This document shows, one piece after another, positions 50,072-57,828 of a stretch of DNA of 64,000 bases. Under the pieces are notes generated by a model. It did not search any database. It saw nothing but the letters and a program-made list of their open reading frames with translations, and was not told where the DNA came from. The position numbers and the translations under genes are program-made. Location: positions 62,001 to 126,000 of the forward strand of contig NZ_JAXIVS010000001.1 in NCBI RefSeq assembly GCF_034259325.1, given 5' to 3'. The stretch is from Hyalangium ruber (GTDB lineage Bacteria; Myxococcota; Myxococcia; Myxococcales; Myxococcaceae). Position 1 is the stretch's first letter. Every line of letters starts with the position of its first letter.

Positions 50072-51508
50072 TTAGAAACGCTTGGGATCGGGAAACATTT
50101 TCTCGGGATTGAGGAGACCTGCTGGGTCGAAGAAGGTCTTCAACCGGCGCTGCAATTCGAGCACGGCCGGGGACTGCTCCATCGCCAGGTAGTCACGCTT
50201 GGCGTGTCCCACTCCATGCTCGCCAGTAATCGTGCCACCCATCTGCACCGTCATTTCGAGCATGCGTCGGATGGCCGTCTCCACGAGGGCACGCTGGTGC
50301 GGCCCCTCGTAGAGGATGTTGGCGTGGAGGTTGCCGTCTCCGGCGTGGCCATAGGTGGCAACCATCAGGCCGAGCTCAGTTCCCATCGCCTTCAACTTTT
50401 CGATGATTTCGGGAATACGTGAGCGAGGTACGGCGATGTCTTCGGAGAGCTTGTAAGGCTTGAGCGTGCGCAGGGCGGTGGAGACTCCGCGCCGAGCGGA
50501 CCAGAGCTTCTCGCGCTGCTCCTCGTTCTGCGCGACGAGCGTCTGAGTGGCGCCCAGCCGCTCGCAGATCTCTCCCGCCTGGGCCAGCTCGGCCAGCAGC
50601 CCCTCTTCCACGTTGCCGTCCACCTCGAGGATGACGGCCGAGCCCGCGCCCGCCGGGAAGTGGAACGCCTTGCCGTCCACCGCGCGCAGGGCTACGTCGT
50701 CGATGAGCTCCAGGGTGCGGGGCAGTACGCCCGCGGCAAGCACCGCGGAGACGGCGCGCGCGGCGGTAAGCACCGAGTCGAAGATGATGAGCGCCGTCAT
50801 CACATGCTTGGGTTTGGGGATGAGCTGGAGGGTGATCTCCGTGGCGACCCCCAGCGTGCCCTCCGAGCCCACGAAGAGGCCGACGAGATCGTAGCCCGCC
50901 ACACCCTTGATGGTGCGCCTGCCCACCTGGAGGATCTCCCCGGTCGGCGTCACCCACTCCAGGCCGATGACGTAGTCGCGCGTCACCCCGTACTTGAGCG
51001 CTCGGGGACCTCCCGCGTTCTCGGCGATGTTGCCGCCCATCGTGCAGAACTGCCACGAGTTGGGATCCGGTGGATAGAAGAGGCCCACCGCCTCCACGGC
51101 CTTCATCAGGTCGCCCGTAATCACGCCGGGCTCCACCACGGCCGTCAGGTCCTCCACGGAGATGGAGCGGATGCGGTTCATCCGCTCCAGGCTCACCGCC
51201 ACGCCGCCTCGCAGGGGCAGCGAGCCGCCACTCTTGCCGCTGCGCGCGCCGCACGGGGTGAAGGGCACGCCCAGCGCCTGGCACGTCTTGAAGACGGCGG
51301 ACACCTGCTCGGCGCTCTCCGGAAAGACAATCAGGTCCGGCGGGAAGACGCCGCTGTCGGACTCGTCGCGGGAATATTGCTGGCGGGTGTCCTCGTCGCG
51401 GCGCACCTGGCCCGGGGAGAGCACCTCGGTGAGCGCGGTGAAGGCACGCTCCAGGCGCTCGGGCTCCACGCGCGGGAAGGTCTTCTCGAACGGCAACGGC
51501 GCCGTCAT
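50072..51508 (-). CDS. glcD: FAD-linked 2-hydroxyacid oxidase (GlcD-like)
   Basis: A 478-residue VAO-type flavoprotein. The FAD-binding domain has TPCGARSGKSGGSLPLRGG and FCTMGGNIAENAGGPRALKYG; the pyrophosphate loop and GLFVGSEGTLGVATEITLQLIP are present, and the C-terminal cap contains VATYGHAGDGNLHANIL and TGEHGVGHAKRDYL. It oxidises glycolate, D-lactate or a related 2-hydroxy acid; GlcE and GlcF partners are absent, so it may use a different acceptor. The ATG at 51508 overlaps the folE stop (ATGA), which fixes the start. The operon order is Rieske, folE, glcD on the minus strand. Confidence 0.88.
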   Translation of the reverse strand: MTAPLPFEKTFPRVEPERLERAFTALTEVLSPGQVRRDEDTRQQYSRDESDSGVFPPDLIVFPESAEQVSAVFKTCQALGVPFTPCGARSGKSGGSLPLRGGVAVSLERMNRIRSISVEDLTAVVEPGVITGDLMKAVEAVGLFYPPDPNSWQFCTMGGNIAENAGGPRALKYGVTRDYVIGLEWVTPTGEILQVGRRTIKGVAGYDLVGLFVGSEGTLGVATEITLQLIPKPKHVMTALIIFDSVLTAARAVSAVLAAGVLPRTLELIDDVALRAVDGKAFHFPAGAGSAVILEVDGNVEEGLLAELAQAGEICERLGATQTLVAQNEEQREKLWSARRGVSTALRTLKPYKLSEDIAVPRSRIPEIIEKLKAMGTELGLMVATYGHAGDGNLHANILYEGPHQRALVETAIRRMLEMTVQMGGTITGEHGVGHAKRDYLAMEQSPAVLELQRRLKTFFDPAGLLNPEKMFPDPKRF

Positions 51509-52131
51509 CGTTGCATCCCCAGCCGTGTCCACAGCTCTCGGCGCAGCGGCCCATCCCGCCGCAGACGCCCCTCGTAGGCCTCCGCGTGGGTGACGGCATC
51601 CCGCTGCTTGTCGCCTCGCATGCGCAGACACGCCTGCTTCGCCTCGAGGATGCACGCGGTGGCGGGGCTGCCGAGCACTCGCGCTAGCGAGCTGGCCACG
51701 TGGCGCGCCAGGTCTTCCTGAAGGATGAGGCGGTGGGCGAAGCAGTCCACCAGCGCGGACAGGCGTCCGAAGCCCACCACCTGCTTGCCCGGCACATAGG
51801 CCACGTGCGCGCGGCCTTCATAAGGAAGCAGGTGGTGCGGACACATGGAGTGGAAGCGCAGGTCCGTCACCACCACCAGCTCGCCCGAGGAGTCCGGTGG
51901 GGCCGGGAAGGTCTCCCCCAGCGCCTCCTCGGCGGTGCGGCCGTAGCCATCGAGGAACTCGCTCGTCCAGGCCTCGGCCACGCGCTCCGGCGTCTCGGTC
52001 AGGTTGGGGTCCGTGAGCGGCAGGCCCGCGGCGCGCAGGAAGTCCTTGATCGCCGCGGCCATGGCGGCCGGGTCTGGGACAACGGGGGTGGCGCCGCGAA
52101 GGGAACGACGGGGGGCTCGGGGGTTTCCCAC
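51505..52131 (-). CDS. folE: GTP cyclohydrolase I
   Basis: A 208-residue enzyme that opens the guanine ring of GTP to dihydroneopterin triphosphate, the first step of folate and pterin synthesis. It has FHSMCPHHLLPYEGRAHVAY with the zinc Cys and His residues, VVGFGRLSALVDCFAHRLILQE, and ILEAKQACLRMRGDKQRDA with the second Cys. The start is GTG at 52131 with AGGAG seven bases upstream; a longer frame overlaps the Rieske gene. Length fits (about 190-220). It is zinc-dependent and sits beside the metal-uptake region, on the opposite strand from it. Co-translated with glcD. Confidence 0.9.
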   Translation of the reverse strand: MGNPRAPRRSLRGATPVVPDPAAMAAAIKDFLRAAGLPLTDPNLTETPERVAEAWTSEFLDGYGRTAEEALGETFPAPPDSSGELVVVTDLRFHSMCPHHLLPYEGRAHVAYVPGKQVVGFGRLSALVDCFAHRLILQEDLARHVASSLARVLGSPATACILEAKQACLRMRGDKQRDAVTHAEAYEGRLRRDGPLRRELWTRLGMQR

Positions 52132-52156
52132 TGAGAGTGCTCCTTGGTGGCCGACG

Positions 52157-52501
52157 TCAGGGGGCCGAGACCCTATCCGAGAACGGAGCGACCTGAATCT
52201 CCTCGCCCACCACGCGGACCGCATAGATGCGCAGCCGCACGCCCGCGTTGCTCGGACAGGCGCCCGTCCGCACATCGAAGGGCCAGGCGTGCAGGGGGCA
52301 GTGGACGAGGTAGCCGTCCACATCCCCTTCCGAGAGCGGCCCTCCCCGGTGCGGGCAGGTGTCCTGCATGGCGTAGAGCTGACCCGCTATCCTTAGGATG
52401 GCCACCGGGGTGCCCTCCACCCGCACGACGAGGCGCCCGCGCTCATCCAGGTCGGAGAGCCGGGCGACGGGAATGAATGGCTCGGTGGCTCTTCCGTCCA
52501 C
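52157..52501 (-). CDS. Rieske [2Fe-2S] ferredoxin-like protein
   Basis: A 114-residue single-domain Rieske protein. The cluster motifs are CPHRGGPLSEG and CPLHAWPFDVRTG (two Cys, two His), as in NirD or the ferredoxins of ring-hydroxylating oxygenases. No membrane segment is present, so it is a soluble electron carrier. The start is GTG at 52501 with GGAGG about 7 bases upstream; the frame extends to 52876 but without coding signs, and that region is occupied by an opposite-strand gene. It is 25 bases upstream of folE on the same strand, and its redox partner is not in the window. Confidence 0.85.
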   Translation of the reverse strand: MDGRATEPFIPVARLSDLDERGRLVVRVEGTPVAILRIAGQLYAMQDTCPHRGGPLSEGDVDGYLVHCPLHAWPFDVRTGACPSNAGVRLRIYAVRVVGEEIQVAPFSDRVSAP

Positions 52502-52524
52502 GGGTTGGACCTCCGTCCTCCGCC

Positions 52525-52553
52525 TTGACACCTCTGAAGCACGACAGTAGAGC
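52525..52553 (+). promoter_or_regulatory. Candidate promoter of the metal-uptake operon
   Basis: TTGACA (52525-52530) is followed after 17 bases by TAGAGC (52548-52553), pointing at the gene starting at 52574. The -35 is perfect and the -10 is poor. No recognisable Zur palindrome was seen in the same 70 bases. Confidence 0.35.
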
Positions 52554-52573
52554 ACCCGAGTCCCCTGCCTTCG

Positions 52574-52993
52574 ATGCTCAATCGCGCCGCCACCTTCCGA
52601 CGCTACACCGCGACACTGCTCGTCGTGCTGTGGGGCTTGCCCCTGCTGGTGGCGCTGGGGCACTCCGAAGAGCACGCGCACCGCTACTGCCAGGAACATC
52701 AGACCTTCGAGGACATGGCGCGCAGCGGCGGGGCGACGGTGTCCCTGGCCGCCGAGGCCACGTCTCGGCTCATGGCCATGCCCGCCTCCACGCAGGGCGC
52801 GGACCGCATGGCCCACGAGTCCTGCCCGCTGCTGACGACCAGCCCGCGGGATGAGGCGCTCACCCTGGAGATGCATGTGGTGGTGTCGGCCTGCCTGGCC
52901 GTCAGCCGCCCCGCGACGGCGCCTCCTCGGCCGCTCTCCTCGATTCCCATCCTCGCGACCGCTCCCAAGTCCTCGCCACCCGCACGCGCCTAG
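52574..52993 (+). CDS. Exported His-rich protein at the head of the metal-uptake operon
   Basis: A 139-residue protein with a hydrophobic N-terminal segment (TATLLVVLWGLPLLVALG) followed at once by the metal-ligand cluster GHSEEHAHRYCQEHQ. A second Cys/His area is MAHESCPLL, and another hydrophobic stretch (MHVVVSACLAV) lies near residue 105. The C-terminus ends LATAPKSSPPARA, nearly the same as the end of the protein at 62900-63346 (LRLAPKSSPPLS), so the two look paralogous. It starts an operon with the porin-like, ZnuA, lipoprotein, ZnuC and ZnuB genes. I do not know the family; binding zinc or a similar metal in the periplasm is inferred. Confidence 0.7.
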   Translation: MLNRAATFRRYTATLLVVLWGLPLLVALGHSEEHAHRYCQEHQTFEDMARSGGATVSLAAEATSRLMAMPASTQGADRMAHESCPLLTTSPRDEALTLEMHVVVSACLAVSRPATAPPRPLSSIPILATAPKSSPPARA

Positions 52994-53059
52994 CGTCCGA
53001 AGCGAGAGGCCGTGGGTCGACGTCCGTCCATCGGGCGTCCGGTTCCGAGGAGTTCCCGA

Positions 53060-54376
53060 GTGTCATCCCCGTCACGCCGGTTCACCGGCATACCTGTTGT
53101 CCTTATAAGCATTCTTTCGCTCTCCGCCCTGTCCGCTCGGGCCCAGGAGACGCAGCCCGCCGCCTCTCCGCCAGCCGAGGAGGGCTCTGGCCAGGAGCTG
53201 AGCCCCGAGGAGCAGGCGGAGATCGAGGCCGCCATCGGTAAGGACACGAAGGCCGAGCCCCAGGCTCCCGCCGAGTCCGCCCCCACCTCTGGCGCTTCGG
53301 CTCCGCTCCCGGTGCCGCAGATCCTGTCCTCGCAGTTCCTCGAGCTGAGCTTCGTGCTCGACGTGGCGCTCGCAGCCTTCACCGCCGAGGAACCCCTGCA
53401 AGGCGGCGCGCACGATCCTTTGGACAACGGGTTCACCTTCCAGCAGTTGGAGCTGTCCATCAGCAGCGTGGTGGACCCGTACCTGCGCTTCAACGGCAAC
53501 ATCGTCTTCAGCCAGTTCGGGGTGGAAGTCGAAGAGGCCTACGTCACCTCGCTGGACCTGCCCGCCAACCTGCAGGTGCGCGCGGGCCAGTTCCTCACCC
53601 GCTTCGGTCGCCTCAACAACACGCACCCCCACGCCTGGGACTTCGCGGACCAGCCCTTCGTCTTCAGCCGCGTCTTCGGCGGCGAGGGCAACCGGGGCCT
53701 GGGCCTGGAGGTGTCCTGGCTCTCGCCGCTGCCCTGGTACCTGGAGGTGGTGGGCTCGGGCACCGACGCCACGGGCGAGAGCACCGCGCGCAGCTTCTTC
53801 GGCGCCGAGAGCAGCCGGGTGGTGTCTCCGTTCGACTTCCAGTTCACCGGCGCGGTGAAGCAGTTCTTCCCCTTCGGCGATGATCTGTCGCTGCTGTGGG
53901 GCCTGTCCGCCGCGACGGGCCCCAACGCCTCGGGCTACCGCAACCGCAGCGATGTCTACGGCACGGACCTCTATCTGAAGTACCGGCCCACCTCGGCGGC
54001 CGACGCCAACGTGGTCTCCCTGCAGGCGGAGCTGCTCTACCGCCGCCGGCAGGTGCCCGACGATCTGCTCTCCGACTGGGGCGGATACGCCCAGGTCCTC
54101 TGGCGCTTCTCGAGGCGCTGGGCCACCAGCGGACGCTACGAGTTCGGCACCGCCGCCCGCGACCAGGACGGCCGCCTCGCGGAGGATCCGCTCGATCCGG
54201 AGTGGACCGCCACGCGCCAGCGCATCTCCGCCAACGTCACCTTCTGGCCCACGGAGTTCTCCCGGCTGCGCCTGCAGGCCGCCACCGACCGTGTCGGCTG
54301 GCGCTCGGAGCCGGACTACTCCGCCTTCCTCACTCTCGAAGCAGTGATGGGTGCCCACGGCGCCCACGCCTTCTGA
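53060..54376 (+). CDS. Porin-like outer-membrane protein of the metal-uptake operon
   Basis: A 438-residue protein. A signal peptide (IPVVLISILSLSALSARA) is followed by an acidic linker (about 30-70, SPEEQAEIEAAIGKD) and then a beta-rich barrel with alternating residues: FLELSFVLDVALAAF, YLRFNGNIVFSQFGVEV, NLQVRAGQFLTRFGRLN, AQVLWRFSRRWATSGRYEFG. The start at GTG 53060 has GAGGAG seven bases upstream and gives a normal leader. The C-terminus LTLEAVMGAHGAHAF ends in Phe, as barrel proteins do, and has three His in the last eight residues. Similar proteins occur next to zinc ABC transporter genes in other bacteria, so it may admit zinc or a zinc complex. It is 66 bases after the His-rich gene. 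Confidence 0.8.
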   Translation: MSSPSRRFTGIPVVLISILSLSALSARAQETQPAASPPAEEGSGQELSPEEQAEIEAAIGKDTKAEPQAPAESAPTSGASAPLPVPQILSSQFLELSFVLDVALAAFTAEEPLQGGAHDPLDNGFTFQQLELSISSVVDPYLRFNGNIVFSQFGVEVEEAYVTSLDLPANLQVRAGQFLTRFGRLNNTHPHAWDFADQPFVFSRVFGGEGNRGLGLEVSWLSPLPWYLEVVGSGTDATGESTARSFFGAESSRVVSPFDFQFTGAVKQFFPFGDDLSLLWGLSAATGPNASGYRNRSDVYGTDLYLKYRPTSAADANVVSLQAELLYRRRQVPDDLLSDWGGYAQVLWRFSRRWATSGRYEFGTAARDQDGRLAEDPLDPEWTATRQRISANVTFWPTEFSRLRLQAATDRVGWRSEPDYSAFLTLEAVMGAHGAHAF

Positions 54377-54400
54377 ACCCTTCTTCTCCGGAGCCTTCCG

Positions 54401-55324
54401 ATGAGAACCCTTCGCTTCTTCACGGCGCTGAGCGCCGCCCTCCTCTGCCTCCTGTCCCTGCCGGCCCGCGCCGACCTGAACGTCGTCACCACCGTGCCGG
54501 ACCTCGCCGCCCTGGCCAAGGCCGTGGGCGGTGACAAGGCCACCGTCACCTCCCTGTCCCTGCCCACGCAGGATCCCCACTTCGTCGACGCCAAGCCCAA
54601 CCTCGCCCTCACGCTCAACCGCGCCGACCTGCTCATCGCGGTGGGCCTGGAGCTGGAGCTCGGGTGGCTGCCCACGCTCCAGCTCGGCGCGCGCAATGCC
54701 CGCATCCAGTCCGGCAACCCCGGCTTCCTGGATGCCTCGCAGTTCGTGAAGGTGCTCGATGTGCCCGCCGGCGCGGTGGACCGGAGCCAGGGCGATGTCC
54801 ACCCCCGGGGCAACCCGCACTACCTCTATGACCCGCGCGCGGCCCTCGCCGTGGCCCAGGGTATCGCCGGGCGCATGGAGCAGCTCGATCCGAAGAACGC
54901 CGCCACCTACCGGGCCAACCTGGAGAAGTTCTCCACCGAGTTGGAGAAGACCCGCGCCGACTGGGAGAAGCGCCTGGCGGGGCTGCGCGGCGTGCCGGTC
55001 ATCTCGTACCACAAGACAACCATCTATCTGGCTGACTGGCTGGGCTTCTCCTCGACGGCCTTCCTCGAGCCGAAGCCGGGCATTCCTCCCAACCCCTCGC
55101 ACGTGGCCAAGGTGCTGACGCAGGGGCGACAGCAGAAGGTGCGCTTCGTCCTCCAGGAGGACTTCTACCCGGACGCCACCTCGCGACTCGTGGCCTCGAA
55201 GATCCCCGCGCCGCTGGTGCTCCTGCCGGGCGGCACGGACTTCCGCGGCGGGGAGACGTACCTCCAGAACATGGAGCAGCTGGTGAAGCGGCTCGAGCAG
55301 GCCCTCGCGGGCAAGGGAGGCTGA
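54401..55324 (+). CDS. znuA: ZnuA-like metal-binding periplasmic protein (ABC cluster A-I)
   Basis: A 307-residue exported solute-binding protein (signal peptide ending LSLPARA). The metal ligands are the usual ones: His in TQDPHFVDAKP, His in GNPHYLYDP, His in VISYHKTTIYL, and an acidic residue in VLQEDFYPDA. The long alpha-helical backbone (ALAVAQGIAGRMEQLDPKNAATYRANLEKFSTELEKT) is typical. There is no His-rich loop of the kind found in E. coli ZnuA, so zinc capacity may depend on other proteins of the operon. Zn versus Mn cannot be decided from the ligands alone; zinc is favoured by context. It lies 24 bases downstream of the porin-like gene. Confidence 0.9.
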   Translation: MRTLRFFTALSAALLCLLSLPARADLNVVTTVPDLAALAKAVGGDKATVTSLSLPTQDPHFVDAKPNLALTLNRADLLIAVGLELELGWLPTLQLGARNARIQSGNPGFLDASQFVKVLDVPAGAVDRSQGDVHPRGNPHYLYDPRAALAVAQGIAGRMEQLDPKNAATYRANLEKFSTELEKTRADWEKRLAGLRGVPVISYHKTTIYLADWLGFSSTAFLEPKPGIPPNPSHVAKVLTQGRQQKVRFVLQEDFYPDATSRLVASKIPAPLVLLPGGTDFRGGETYLQNMEQLVKRLEQALAGKGG

Positions 55325-55327
55325 GCC

Positions 55328-56170
55328 ATGCGCGCCCCCCTGCTGCTTCCCGTGCTGATGCTGGCCGGCTGCGCCTGGGAGCCCGGTGCGGGCTTCGCCG
55401 CGCTCGAGGCCACGATGAACGCCAAGTACGCCCCCGAGGGGTCTCGTGAGCGAGGGCTCGGCTATCAACAGCTCGCGTCCAGCTACCAGATCCAGGTGAC
55501 CGGAGCGACGATGCAGCTGGAGCGCATCGAGCTCATTGGCCGCGCCGCCAGCACCGGGCCCTCGCGCTTCGATCCGGCCAACCCTCCCCCGGGCTATACC
55601 CTGTGCCACGGCGGCCACTGCCACCGCGACGACGGCGCGCTCATCCCCTACGAGGACATCGAGGCGGAGCTGAGTGGAGGTGGCGCCACGGCGACCCCAG
55701 TGGCCACCCTGCCCGTGGGCGAGCTGAACCTGCTGGCGCCCGTGCCGCGCACCCTGGGCTGCGAGCCCGACTGCGAGCTGCCTCGCACCGAAGTCACTCG
55801 CGCGCGCTGGGCCGTGACGACGCTGCGACTGGCGGGCACCGTGCGTGATTCGCTCACCACGCCTCGCTTTCCGGGGAACCGTTTGTTCCAGCTGGAACTC
55901 GCCACCACGGGCACGGCCTCGCCCGTCGCGGTGCTCGAAGGGGACCTGGACGTGCCCTCCGATCGGGAGCACGCGCCGCGCGTCCTCATGCACCTCCAGC
56001 TCGACATCCCGTCCCGAATCTTCGACGAGGTGGATTGGGCGGCCACCACGCCGGGCGCGGACGGCACCGTGGATCTGGGAGCCGAGGCCAACGCCGCGGC
56101 CCGCGCAGAGATCCTCGAATACCTGTCGGGAGTGAAGCCGACGGCGGAGGTGACGCGTGAAGACCGATGA
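55328..56170 (+). CDS. Lipoprotein with CHGGHCH metal-binding motif inside the znu operon
   Basis: A 280-residue lipoprotein (LMLAGC15). The mature part is beta-rich (YQIQVTGATMQLERIELIGRAA, TEVTRARWAVTTLRLAGTV). It carries C93-H94-G-G-H97-C98-H99-RDDG and a second Cys pair (LGCEPDCELPRTE), likely metal ligands or disulfides. Its start lies 3 bases after the ZnuA stop and its end overlaps the ZnuC start by 14 bases, so it is fully embedded in the transporter operon. No known family is obvious to me. The simplest reading is a membrane-anchored metal-binding protein that delivers metal to ZnuA or to the porin-like protein; that is inference. Confidence 0.8.
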   Translation: MRAPLLLPVLMLAGCAWEPGAGFAALEATMNAKYAPEGSRERGLGYQQLASSYQIQVTGATMQLERIELIGRAASTGPSRFDPANPPPGYTLCHGGHCHRDDGALIPYEDIEAELSGGGATATPVATLPVGELNLLAPVPRTLGCEPDCELPRTEVTRARWAVTTLRLAGTVRDSLTTPRFPGNRLFQLELATTGTASPVAVLEGDLDVPSDREHAPRVLMHLQLDIPSRIFDEVDWAATTPGADGTVDLGAEANAAARAEILEYLSGVKPTAEVTREDR

Positions 56171-56975
56171 ACAGGACTTCGCCTCGGGACAGGTCGGCGC
56201 TTCCTCACGGACCGAGGCGGCGGAGTTGCTCCTGTCCTGCGAGCGCCTCGTCATCGGCTTCGGGGGCAAGCCCCTGCTGCCGCCCATCGACCTTCAGGTC
56301 CGGCGCGGCGACTTCGTGGCGGTGGTGGGCCGCAATGGCTCGGGCAAGAGCACCTGGTTCAAGACGCTGCTCGGGCTGCAGTCCCCGGTGTCCGGCCGCA
56401 TCCTCAAGGGGCGCCCGGGCATGAAGAGCGCGTACGTGCCGCAGACGGCGGGCATCGACGCCATCCTCCCGGTGCGCCCCAAGGAGATGGTCCTCTGGGG
56501 CCGGATGTCGGGCTGGAACTTCCTCAACCCCTTTCCCAGCCGGGAGGACCGGCGGGTGGCGGAGGCGGCGCTCGACACCGCGGGAGCGCGCGCGTTCGCC
56601 CAGCGCCCCTACCGCGAGCTGTCCGAGGGCCAGAAGCAGCGCACGCTGCTGGCCCGCGTGCTCGCCAGCGAAGCGGACCTCGTGCTGCTGGACGAGCCCA
56701 CCGCCGCCATGGACGCGGTGGCCGAGCGCGAGACGATGCAGCGCCTGGCGGGGCTGGCGCACGAGCGGCGCATCGCCGTGGTGGTGGTGAGCCACGACCT
56801 GACGATGGCCGCCGAGCACGCCGACACCCTGCTCTTCCTCGATCGCGAGGGCCCCGCCGTCGTCGTCGGGGATGCCCCCACCGTCTTCTGCCACCCGGCC
56901 TTCCGCCACCAGTACGGCGACGAGTACTGCGCTCGCGCCTCCTCAGGATCCCGACTTGGACCCGTCCCTCCTTGA
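56157..56975 (+). CDS. znuC: Metal ABC transporter ATP-binding protein (ZnuC-like)
   Basis: A 272-residue ABC ATPase. Walker A is VVGRNGSGKSTWFKTL, the signature is YRELSEGQKQRTLLARVLAS, Walker B is LVLLDEPTAAMD and the switch His is in VVVVSHDLTMAAEH. The N-terminal 25 residues are a non-conserved extension, and the C-terminus has an extra HPAFRHQYGDEYC segment after the core, which supplies two His and one Cys. The start GTG at 56157 overlaps the lipoprotein end by 14 bases, indicating coupling. ZnuB follows with overlap, completing the A-C-B order of the family. Confidence 0.92.
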   Translation: MKTDEQDFASGQVGASSRTEAAELLLSCERLVIGFGGKPLLPPIDLQVRRGDFVAVVGRNGSGKSTWFKTLLGLQSPVSGRILKGRPGMKSAYVPQTAGIDAILPVRPKEMVLWGRMSGWNFLNPFPSREDRRVAEAALDTAGARAFAQRPYRELSEGQKQRTLLARVLASEADLVLLDEPTAAMDAVAERETMQRLAGLAHERRIAVVVVSHDLTMAAEHADTLLFLDREGPAVVVGDAPTVFCHPAFRHQYGDEYCARASSGSRLGPVPP

Positions 56976-57828
56976 ACCCTCGAAGTGGGAGCAGTTCCAG
57001 GCCAGCTTCGACCTGTTCCGAGATCCCGTCCTGTGCGCGCTGATCGCCGGGGGCGTCCTGGGCTTCCTCAGCGTCTACGTGGTGCTGCGGCGCATGGTGT
57101 TCGTCAGCGCCGCGGTCACCCACTCGGCCGGCCTCGGCGTGGCGCTCGCCTTCTTCGCGGAGATCCACCTGGGCACGCACGTGGACCCCATGCTGGGCGC
57201 CACCGGCCTGTCCCTGCTGGCCACCCTGTTGCTCATGGCGGACCCGGCCCGGTTGAAGCTCACTCGGGAGAGCATGCTGGGCCTCGCCTTCGCGTTCGCC
57301 GGCGGCGCGGCCGTGCTGGTGGGCGACCGCATCGCGCAGGAGGCCCATGACATCCAGGGCATCCTCTTCGGAACCGCGGTGCTGGTGACCGAGGAGCAGC
57401 TCGCCGCCGTGGCCATCGTCGGCGCCGCCGTCCTGTTCATCCAGCTCTGGTGGTTCCGAGGCCTCACCTTCGCCAGCTTCGACCGGGTGGGTGCCCGCGT
57501 GCAGGGGCTGCCCGTGCGGCTCCTGGATTCGGTGCTGATGATCTCCATCGGCGTGATGGTGGGCGTATCGGCACGGGCGCTCGGCGCGCTGCCCGTCTTC
57601 GCCTTCTCCACCTTGTCGGCCATCGCCGCGCTCGTGCTGGACCTGCGGCTGGGCTGGACCTTCCTGCTGGCCACCCTCGCCGGGTGCATCTCCGGCGTGG
57701 GCGGCTACCTGTTCGCCTTCTTCTACGACTTCCCCGTGGGCGGCTCGCAGACGGTCCTTTCGAGCGCACTGGTGGTAGTGGCCGTGCTCCTGCGCGCCCT
57801 GCGCGGACTGGTCCGACCGGCGCGCTGA
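56956..57828 (+). CDS. znuB: Metal ABC transporter permease (ZnuB-like, ABC-3 family)
   Basis: A permease of about 290 residues with eight or nine membrane helices (for example VLCALIAGGVLGFLSVYVVL, LSLLATLLLMADPARLKL, LDSVLMISIGVMVGVSARALG). It has the ABC-3 family features, with DIQGILFGTAVLV forming the coupling region. A TTG at 56956 with AGGA upstream is preferred because it overlaps ZnuC by only 20 bases; an ATG at 56872 would overlap 104 bases and add a Ser/Thr/Pro-rich leader. The stop is 5 bases from the convergent isochorismatase gene. It transports the metal received from ZnuA; zinc is the likely substrate. Confidence 0.9.
   Translation: MDPSLLEPSKWEQFQASFDLFRDPVLCALIAGGVLGFLSVYVVLRRMVFVSAAVTHSAGLGVALAFFAEIHLGTHVDPMLGATGLSLLATLLLMADPARLKLTRESMLGLAFAFAGGAAVLVGDRIAQEAHDIQGILFGTAVLVTEEQLAAVAIVGAAVLFIQLWWFRGLTFASFDRVGARVQGLPVRLLDSVLMISIGVMVGVSARALGALPVFAFSTLSAIAALVLDLRLGWTFLLATLAGCISGVGGYLFAFFYDFPVGGSQTVLSSALVVVAVLLRALRGLVRPAR

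Follow-up and report, generated by a model that had tools for sequence, protein, structure and literature searches.

A six-gene operon of Hyalangium ruber encoding a plug-less porin and a loop-less ZnuA as a likely zinc-scavenging system

For the passage of zinc through the outer membrane, the established routes are mostly TonB-dependent receptors, ZnuD among them, and the receptors for metallophores. A different type of outer-membrane metal uptake has been assigned to MnoP of Bradyrhizobium japonicum, which is regulated by Mur, with MntH. MnoP is cited as a manganese porin that functions in metal uptake and is not TonB-dependent (PMC6011978). Among zinc importers, the cluster omr-znuA2-znuB2 has been reported for several Vibrio species including V. 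campbellii; in V. parahaemolyticus it belongs to the Zur regulon and is up-regulated 283- to 1034-fold in zinc limitation (PMC9817125). Its binding protein ZnuA2 (VPA1307) represents a novel ZnuA subfamily: under TPEN, the deletion mutant grew about 70% less; conserved histidines, for which the mutants H69A and H148A were made, contribute to activity (PMC3794297). Here, we analysed six genes at positions 52574 to 57828 of a 64,000-nucleotide stretch of the Hyalangium ruber genome (the window), which encode, in one direction, a small exported protein termed HisR, a porin, ZnuA, a lipoprotein with a CHxGHCH segment, ZnuC, and ZnuB.

The H. ruber operon shares its core with the Vibrio cluster (VP_RS21430-21420). 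In both, a homologous barrel (27% identity, 5e-19) is encoded directly upstream of a ZnuA of the same subfamily (35%, 8e-56), and a homologous permease occurs in the same order. The V. campbellii barrel ends in GAHGAHAF, identical to the C terminus of the window porin, but carries a His-rich insertion, and its locus is devoid of genes for an ATPase, HisR, and the lipoprotein. The assignment of this locus to the published cluster is based on the species and on the genes present, not on V. parahaemolyticus protein sequences. The published vpa1307 forward primer reads GAHGAH in its third frame, i.e. the C terminus of the upstream porin, and the VPA1307 mutagenesis primers read as the motifs QDP-H-Y and GNP-H-V, which are common to the window ZnuA. 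Two Zur-like boxes were identified 19-65 bases upstream of the V. campbellii porin. A tblastn search with the porin against 72,556 plasmid records yielded two matches, Sulfurovum mangrovi and V. campbellii, and at both loci the porin is followed by ZnuA and then by a permease. In Sulfurovum, an exported His/Cys protein of 118 residues without detectable homology to HisR precedes the porin. The corresponding search with ZnuA returned 1,191 records, among which the two porin-carrying ones scored 1e-47 and 2e-45, compared to 1e-18 for the best other among the matches listed. The sequence-only reading of the window had known of no described system with this set of genes. As far as searched, this holds for the six-gene set, while the core is that of the Vibrio cluster (PMC9817125, PMC3794297). 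The porin-ZnuA-ZnuB core is thus a known, little-noticed zinc module, and what seems to be undescribed so far is a plug-less porin with near-invariant histidines that is nearly inseparable from ZnuA across a phylum. HisR and the CHxGHCH lipoprotein likewise seem to be undescribed proteins, and a search of the literature on ZnuABC in myxobacteria returned nothing.

Across the Myxococcota, the porin and ZnuA form a nearly obligate pair that constitutes the core of the operon. In a survey of 193 genomes of the phylum, each of the two proteins was found in 141. Adjacency was counted from the matches listed, which cover the porin in 139 and ZnuA in 141 of the 193 genomes. Among these, 137 genomes carry both genes, which are adjacent on the same strand in all cases but one (136/137), with a median gap of 33 bases. 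The porin lies upstream of ZnuA in 136 of the 137 pairs, the lone exception having the two genes on different contigs. Within the class, the lipoprotein was detected in 71 of 147 genomes; in most relatives it is located within the transporter operon, most often between ZnuA and ZnuC. According to a comparison of neighbourhoods, most relatives with the lipoprotein keep the order of all six genes, usually with a divergent FolE gene, and often also a divergent Rieske gene, on the upstream side and a convergent isochorismatase gene on the downstream side. Deviations occur: in two genomes (L035, L039), HisR, porin, and lipoprotein come first and ZnuA follows; the operon of another genome (G008) lacks the lipoprotein; and a further one (G058) has the order HisR-ZnuC-ZnuB-ZnuA-porin. 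The gene arrangement is far beyond chance, and the accessory genes, which the sequence-only reading expected beside ZnuABC in related genomes, are kept there in most of the relatives carrying the lipoprotein.

The porin is encoded at 53060..54376 (+), the GTG at 53060 being the inferred start. The reading frame is already open from a GTG at 53012; however, both the signal peptide and the comparison with relatives point to GTG 53060, which is probably the true start and results in a protein of 438 aa and a gap of 66 bases to HisR. Pfam returned only a sub-threshold BBP2 match. No TonB plug or receptor domain was detected by Pfam in the window porin, in 18 relatives, or in the Vibrio and Sulfurovum barrels, while a true TonB-dependent receptor elsewhere in the same genome, used as control, did match PF07715. 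An identity as TonB-dependent receptor was therefore rejected. Since the homologues have no plug, the annotation of the V. parahaemolyticus homologue omr as 'TonB-dependent receptor' looks wrong. The structural model of the window porin (pLDDT 60) comprises 16 strands, and the structures it resembles are those of porins (VhChiP, OprO, Omp32). The protein has only five histidines (H134, H205, H207, H449, and H452, numbered from GTG 53012). Of these, H205 and H449 are present in every one of 36 aligned porins (Myxococcota, Campylobacterota, and Vibrio), H207 in 34, and H452 in 33. H205 and H207 form an H-x-H motif between strands 5 and 6 of the model, and H449 and H452 are among the last residues, within the C-terminal GAHGAH. 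In 16-stranded porins, the loop between strands 5 and 6 is L3, which folds into the pore; the model thus places the H-x-H motif in L3, and H449/H452 lie at the periplasmic end. Because conserved histidines occur at both sites, we infer that the porin is a metal-conducting channel.

The importer genes were readily assigned. ZnuA (54401..55324, +), the sole gene of the ZnuA type detected in this genome, matches PF01297 (1.4e-49), ZnuC (56157..56975, +), the importer ATPase, matches PF00005 (9e-25), and ZnuB (56872..57828, +), the permease, matches PF00950 (2e-37). The metal ligands of ZnuA, aligned with controls, are H60, H140, and H204; in the SitA control, the last of these is replaced by Glu. 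The segment of 79 residues between the first two ligands contains a single His, compared to 8 in Pseudomonas ZnuA, in agreement with the missing His-rich loop noted in the sequence-only reading. The sequence thus marks the protein as a member of ABC cluster A-I, but not as a group II ZnuA. In a maximum-likelihood tree, the porin-linked ZnuAs, including those of Sulfurovum and Vibrio, form one group with bootstrap 100 against eight other cluster A-I proteins. The accessory proteins had been proposed to replace or extend the loop. However, the loop is absent from 31 of 31 porin-linked ZnuAs, including those at loci without the lipoprotein and/or HisR. Loop loss therefore follows the ZnuA subfamily and not the accessory proteins, and the proposal was abandoned. 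In other species the ZnuA loop is dispensable for transport and serves chaperone contact (PMC7731109).

The described zinc importers differ accordingly. E. coli-type ZnuABC likewise consists of a binding protein, an ATPase, and a permease of cluster A-I, but the window operon has a loop-less ZnuA of a separate clade and a dedicated porin. AztABCD of Paracoccus also encodes a periplasmic accessory protein alongside the importer, and the closest NCBIfam models are those of AztC and AztA. However, ZnuC remains below the AztA cut-off, the window ZnuA reached 83 bits compared to an AztC cut-off of 350, and no AztD model was matched. Moreover, AztC depends on its loop for accepting zinc from AztD (PMC7731109). 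ZrgABCDE of Vibrio and Pseudomonas is a zinc importer operon with extra envelope proteins as well, but ZrgA (DUF2796) is unrelated to cluster A-I, and neither DUF2796 nor the families of ZrgD and ZrgE (DUF2607, DUF3299) were among the matches of the operon proteins. MnoP would be a parallel as a metal-uptake porin independent of TonB, if our reading of the window porin, whose low-pLDDT model is a 16-stranded barrel without a plug, is right. As far as known, it transports another metal and belongs to another porin family.

The lipoprotein gene (55328..56170, +) encodes a predicted lipobox with Cys15 followed by Ala at +2. In E. coli, Ala after the lipobox Cys directs lipoproteins to the outer membrane, and by this rule the protein would be located there. 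Residues of the motif FDPxxPPxGYxxCHxGHCHxDDG are conserved in at least 90% of the 18 members, which share two further invariant Cys, and the members at two loci (L036, L037) end in long His-Asp-rich tails. Pfam returned no family for the window protein, nor when all 18 members were scanned. A search of genome contigs with the lipoprotein identified a single locus, and plasmid records contained no relatives. The structural model (pLDDT 87) gave no significant match with Foldseek; the best match by VIA-align was MbnP of Methylosinus (Z 8.4, rmsd 3.9, 174 aligned residues), at 12% identity and without the CHxGHCH segment of the window protein. The MbnP family PF20243 was matched by 0 of the 18 members, and comparison with MbnP profiles of the phylum was collinear but weak (E 0.0056, probability 6.5%; controls 0.22-0.56). 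Membership in the MbnP family by sequence was therefore rejected, while the model suggests that a distant MbnP-like fold is possible. Three PF20243 proteins are encoded elsewhere in the genome (L141, L159, and L163, on G000:C4 and C11).

HisR (52574..52993, +), an exported protein with a C-terminal APKxSPP, had been termed His-rich. Only 6 of its 139 residues are His; the His/Cys motif, however, is invariant: H30, H36, C39, H42, E46, H81, C84, A130-P131-K132, and S134-P135-P136 are conserved throughout an alignment of 16 rows. No member of the family had a convincing Pfam match. Two further copies exist in the same genome; the first lies inside the window, and the second immediately precedes the gene of a COG0523 (CobW) GTPase (L080 on G000:C1, 4098-6047, -). 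In front of the latter pair lies ATGCAATTGAGTTGCAT, which matches the Desulfovibrio Zur palindrome (PMC545781) almost perfectly, and the COG0523 family has been linked in part to zinc homeostasis (PMC2770081). The association with both the GTPase and the palindrome therefore ties the HisR family to metal starvation.

Taken together, the ZnuABC families were confirmed and the accessory genes are kept beside them, so that the proposed metal-uptake operon stands, with zinc very probably as the metal; zinc uptake as its role is well supported. We consider it likely that the operon is a zinc-scavenging system serving both membranes. Zn2+ would enter by diffusion through the porin as a dedicated outer-membrane channel independent of TonB; its selectivity is suggested by the conserved histidines, and passage would be favoured by the H-x-H of L3 in the pore and by GAHGAH at the periplasmic end. 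The loop-less ZnuA would then take periplasmic zinc with its three His ligands and deliver it to ZnuB/ZnuC for ATP-driven import, zinc being assumed here from VPA1307. The lipoprotein, probably at the inner face of the outer membrane, may buffer zinc or pass it from the porin to ZnuA, and HisR, whose paralogue sits with the COG0523 GTPase, may be a zinc-binding helper of the outer-membrane step. Porin and ZnuA would thus represent the core, with HisR and the lipoprotein as optional parts. More tentatively, and with somewhat less than even confidence, the porins may constitute a zinc-selective family of passive, TonB-independent channels with an invariant H-x-H in the constriction loop, whose C-terminal HGAH would hand zinc to a loop-less ZnuA. 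Such a trans-envelope route would be conserved in Myxococcota, Campylobacterota, and Vibrio, with an MbnP-like lipoprotein and a His/Cys helper as additions made by myxobacteria. If true, a porin nearly inseparable from a zinc-binding protein would represent a simple, directly testable TonB-free zinc route, and two uncharacterised envelope protein families, HisR and the CHxGHCH lipoprotein, would become candidates for zinc handling.

Several results weigh against a zinc-scavenging system of this kind. The Desulfovibrio-type palindrome ATGCAACnnnGTTGCAT, whose consensus may not be that of myxobacteria, was sought before the operon and does not occur in the window with up to three mismatches allowed, although a match lies before the HisR-COG0523 pair. 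The pLDDT of the porin model is 60, and the position of H205/H207 in L3 therefore rests on strand counting. Many loci that have porin and ZnuA lack the lipoprotein and HisR, and the role of these two proteins is therefore optional. Finally, deletion of znuA2 (VPA1307) alone in another V. parahaemolyticus strain, RIMD2210633, resulted in no growth defect (PMC9817125).

The same data were considered under other explanations. The porin fold resembles that of substrate porins such as chitoporin, OprO, and the sucrose porin, and the porin might accordingly be a general channel or one for another solute, linked to ZnuA because zinc crosses as a chelate, for example with a zincophore or a peptide, and is released in the periplasm for the ABC importer. 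Myxobacteria are predators that digest prey protein, and zinc may arrive bound to peptides. We regard this explanation as unlikely, since the invariant positions are histidines rather than a sugar or phosphate site and the conserved neighbours include no genes for ligand biosynthesis. Less likely still is import of manganese or iron, with the loop-less ZnuA belonging to the group III cluster A-I proteins. The missing His-rich loop is a group III trait (PMC7731109), and many Mn-binding proteins are among the PDB matches. However, the third ligand, H204, is His as in zinc proteins and not Glu as in the SitA control; VPA1307, the nearest characterised member, acts in zinc limitation; and the Vibrio copy has the two Zur-like boxes.

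A third explanation concerns only HisR and the lipoprotein, which may protect the envelope by storing or sequestering excess metal, or by sensing it, and be merely co-transcribed with the importer. Both are patchy in their distribution, paralogues of HisR are also encoded apart from the importer, and the protein that the lipoprotein model matches best, MbnP, binds metal in another context. The location of the lipoprotein within the transporter operon in most relatives argues against this, as does the HisR-COG0523 pair, which points to starvation for metal and not to excess. Protection of the envelope is therefore doubtful, albeit less so than the two explanations above, and we favour a role of both proteins in zinc scavenging.

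All six open reading frames are present on the + strand, and Pfam confirmed ZnuA, ABC_tran, and ABC-3, in agreement with the operon as proposed. The long open frames had suggested a lipoprotein-ZnuA fusion, which was rejected since these are only stop-to-stop frames and separate reading frames are present. Of two gene overlaps that had been claimed, the one between ZnuC and ZnuB comprises 104 bases as called. At one related locus (L031), the ZnuB frame opens only after the end of ZnuC; the overlap is therefore probably an artefact of the start site, and ZnuB, whose start is uncertain, would probably begin downstream of 56872. A block TTGACAC-(N)-TAGAGC with a 17-base spacer (52525..52553, +), resembling a sigma-70 promoter, is located 20 bases 5' of HisR. 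It is kept in the window and 12 relatives amid otherwise diverged intergenic sequence and is therefore the probable operon promoter. The block is the sole match of its kind in the window, and a consensus promoter scanner made no call there. No riboswitch or other Rfam RNA was found.

The Desulfovibrio-type palindrome was also not found before the operon of close relatives, and the region upstream of HisR in the window and close relatives contains no consistent shared dyad. The operon could be expressed constitutively, which is conceivable because only one ZnuABC was found in the genome. Throughout the host genome (10.8 Mb), the palindrome with two mismatches occurs 16 times compared to 12 times for a reversed control and is thus no commoner; only the perfect site stands out. 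A two-mismatch site is located in a promoter region that serves two divergent genes, one for a lipoprotein and one for a TonB-dependent receptor containing the segments HGGEGHAE and SHAHGHG (L174, region of G000:C5:396556); this receptor is a candidate zinc receptor of the same regulon. A one-mismatch palindrome precedes an esterase gene as well as a second gene, which is encoded on the opposite strand (L173, region of G000:C5:403673).

Other genes were noted near the operon or in the searches. On Thermus plasmids (L164, L171), loop-poor metal-binding proteins are encoded near SaoD/DsrE-family and hypothetical genes, in stretches in which no permease or ATPase is annotated. In the window, the FolE and Rieske genes (51508-52600, -) lie divergent upstream of the operon and the isochorismatase gene (57837-58406, -) convergent downstream; these neighbours are kept in many family members and have no obvious link to zinc. 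A MerC-family membrane protein is encoded at 58419-58850 (-). Further downstream, a second cluster of exported metal-handling proteins (61664-63358, -) comprises the HisR paralogue of the window, which ends in APKSSPP (62903-63358, -), a lipoprotein ending in HDDGHEH (62131-62616, -), and a lipoprotein of His-rich repeats (61664-62125, -). HisR paralogues near the operon also occur in three other genomes (G014, G029, and G027), and in a further one (G012) a MerC-like gene is located directly downstream of a HisR paralogue (L083, 5572-6588, -).

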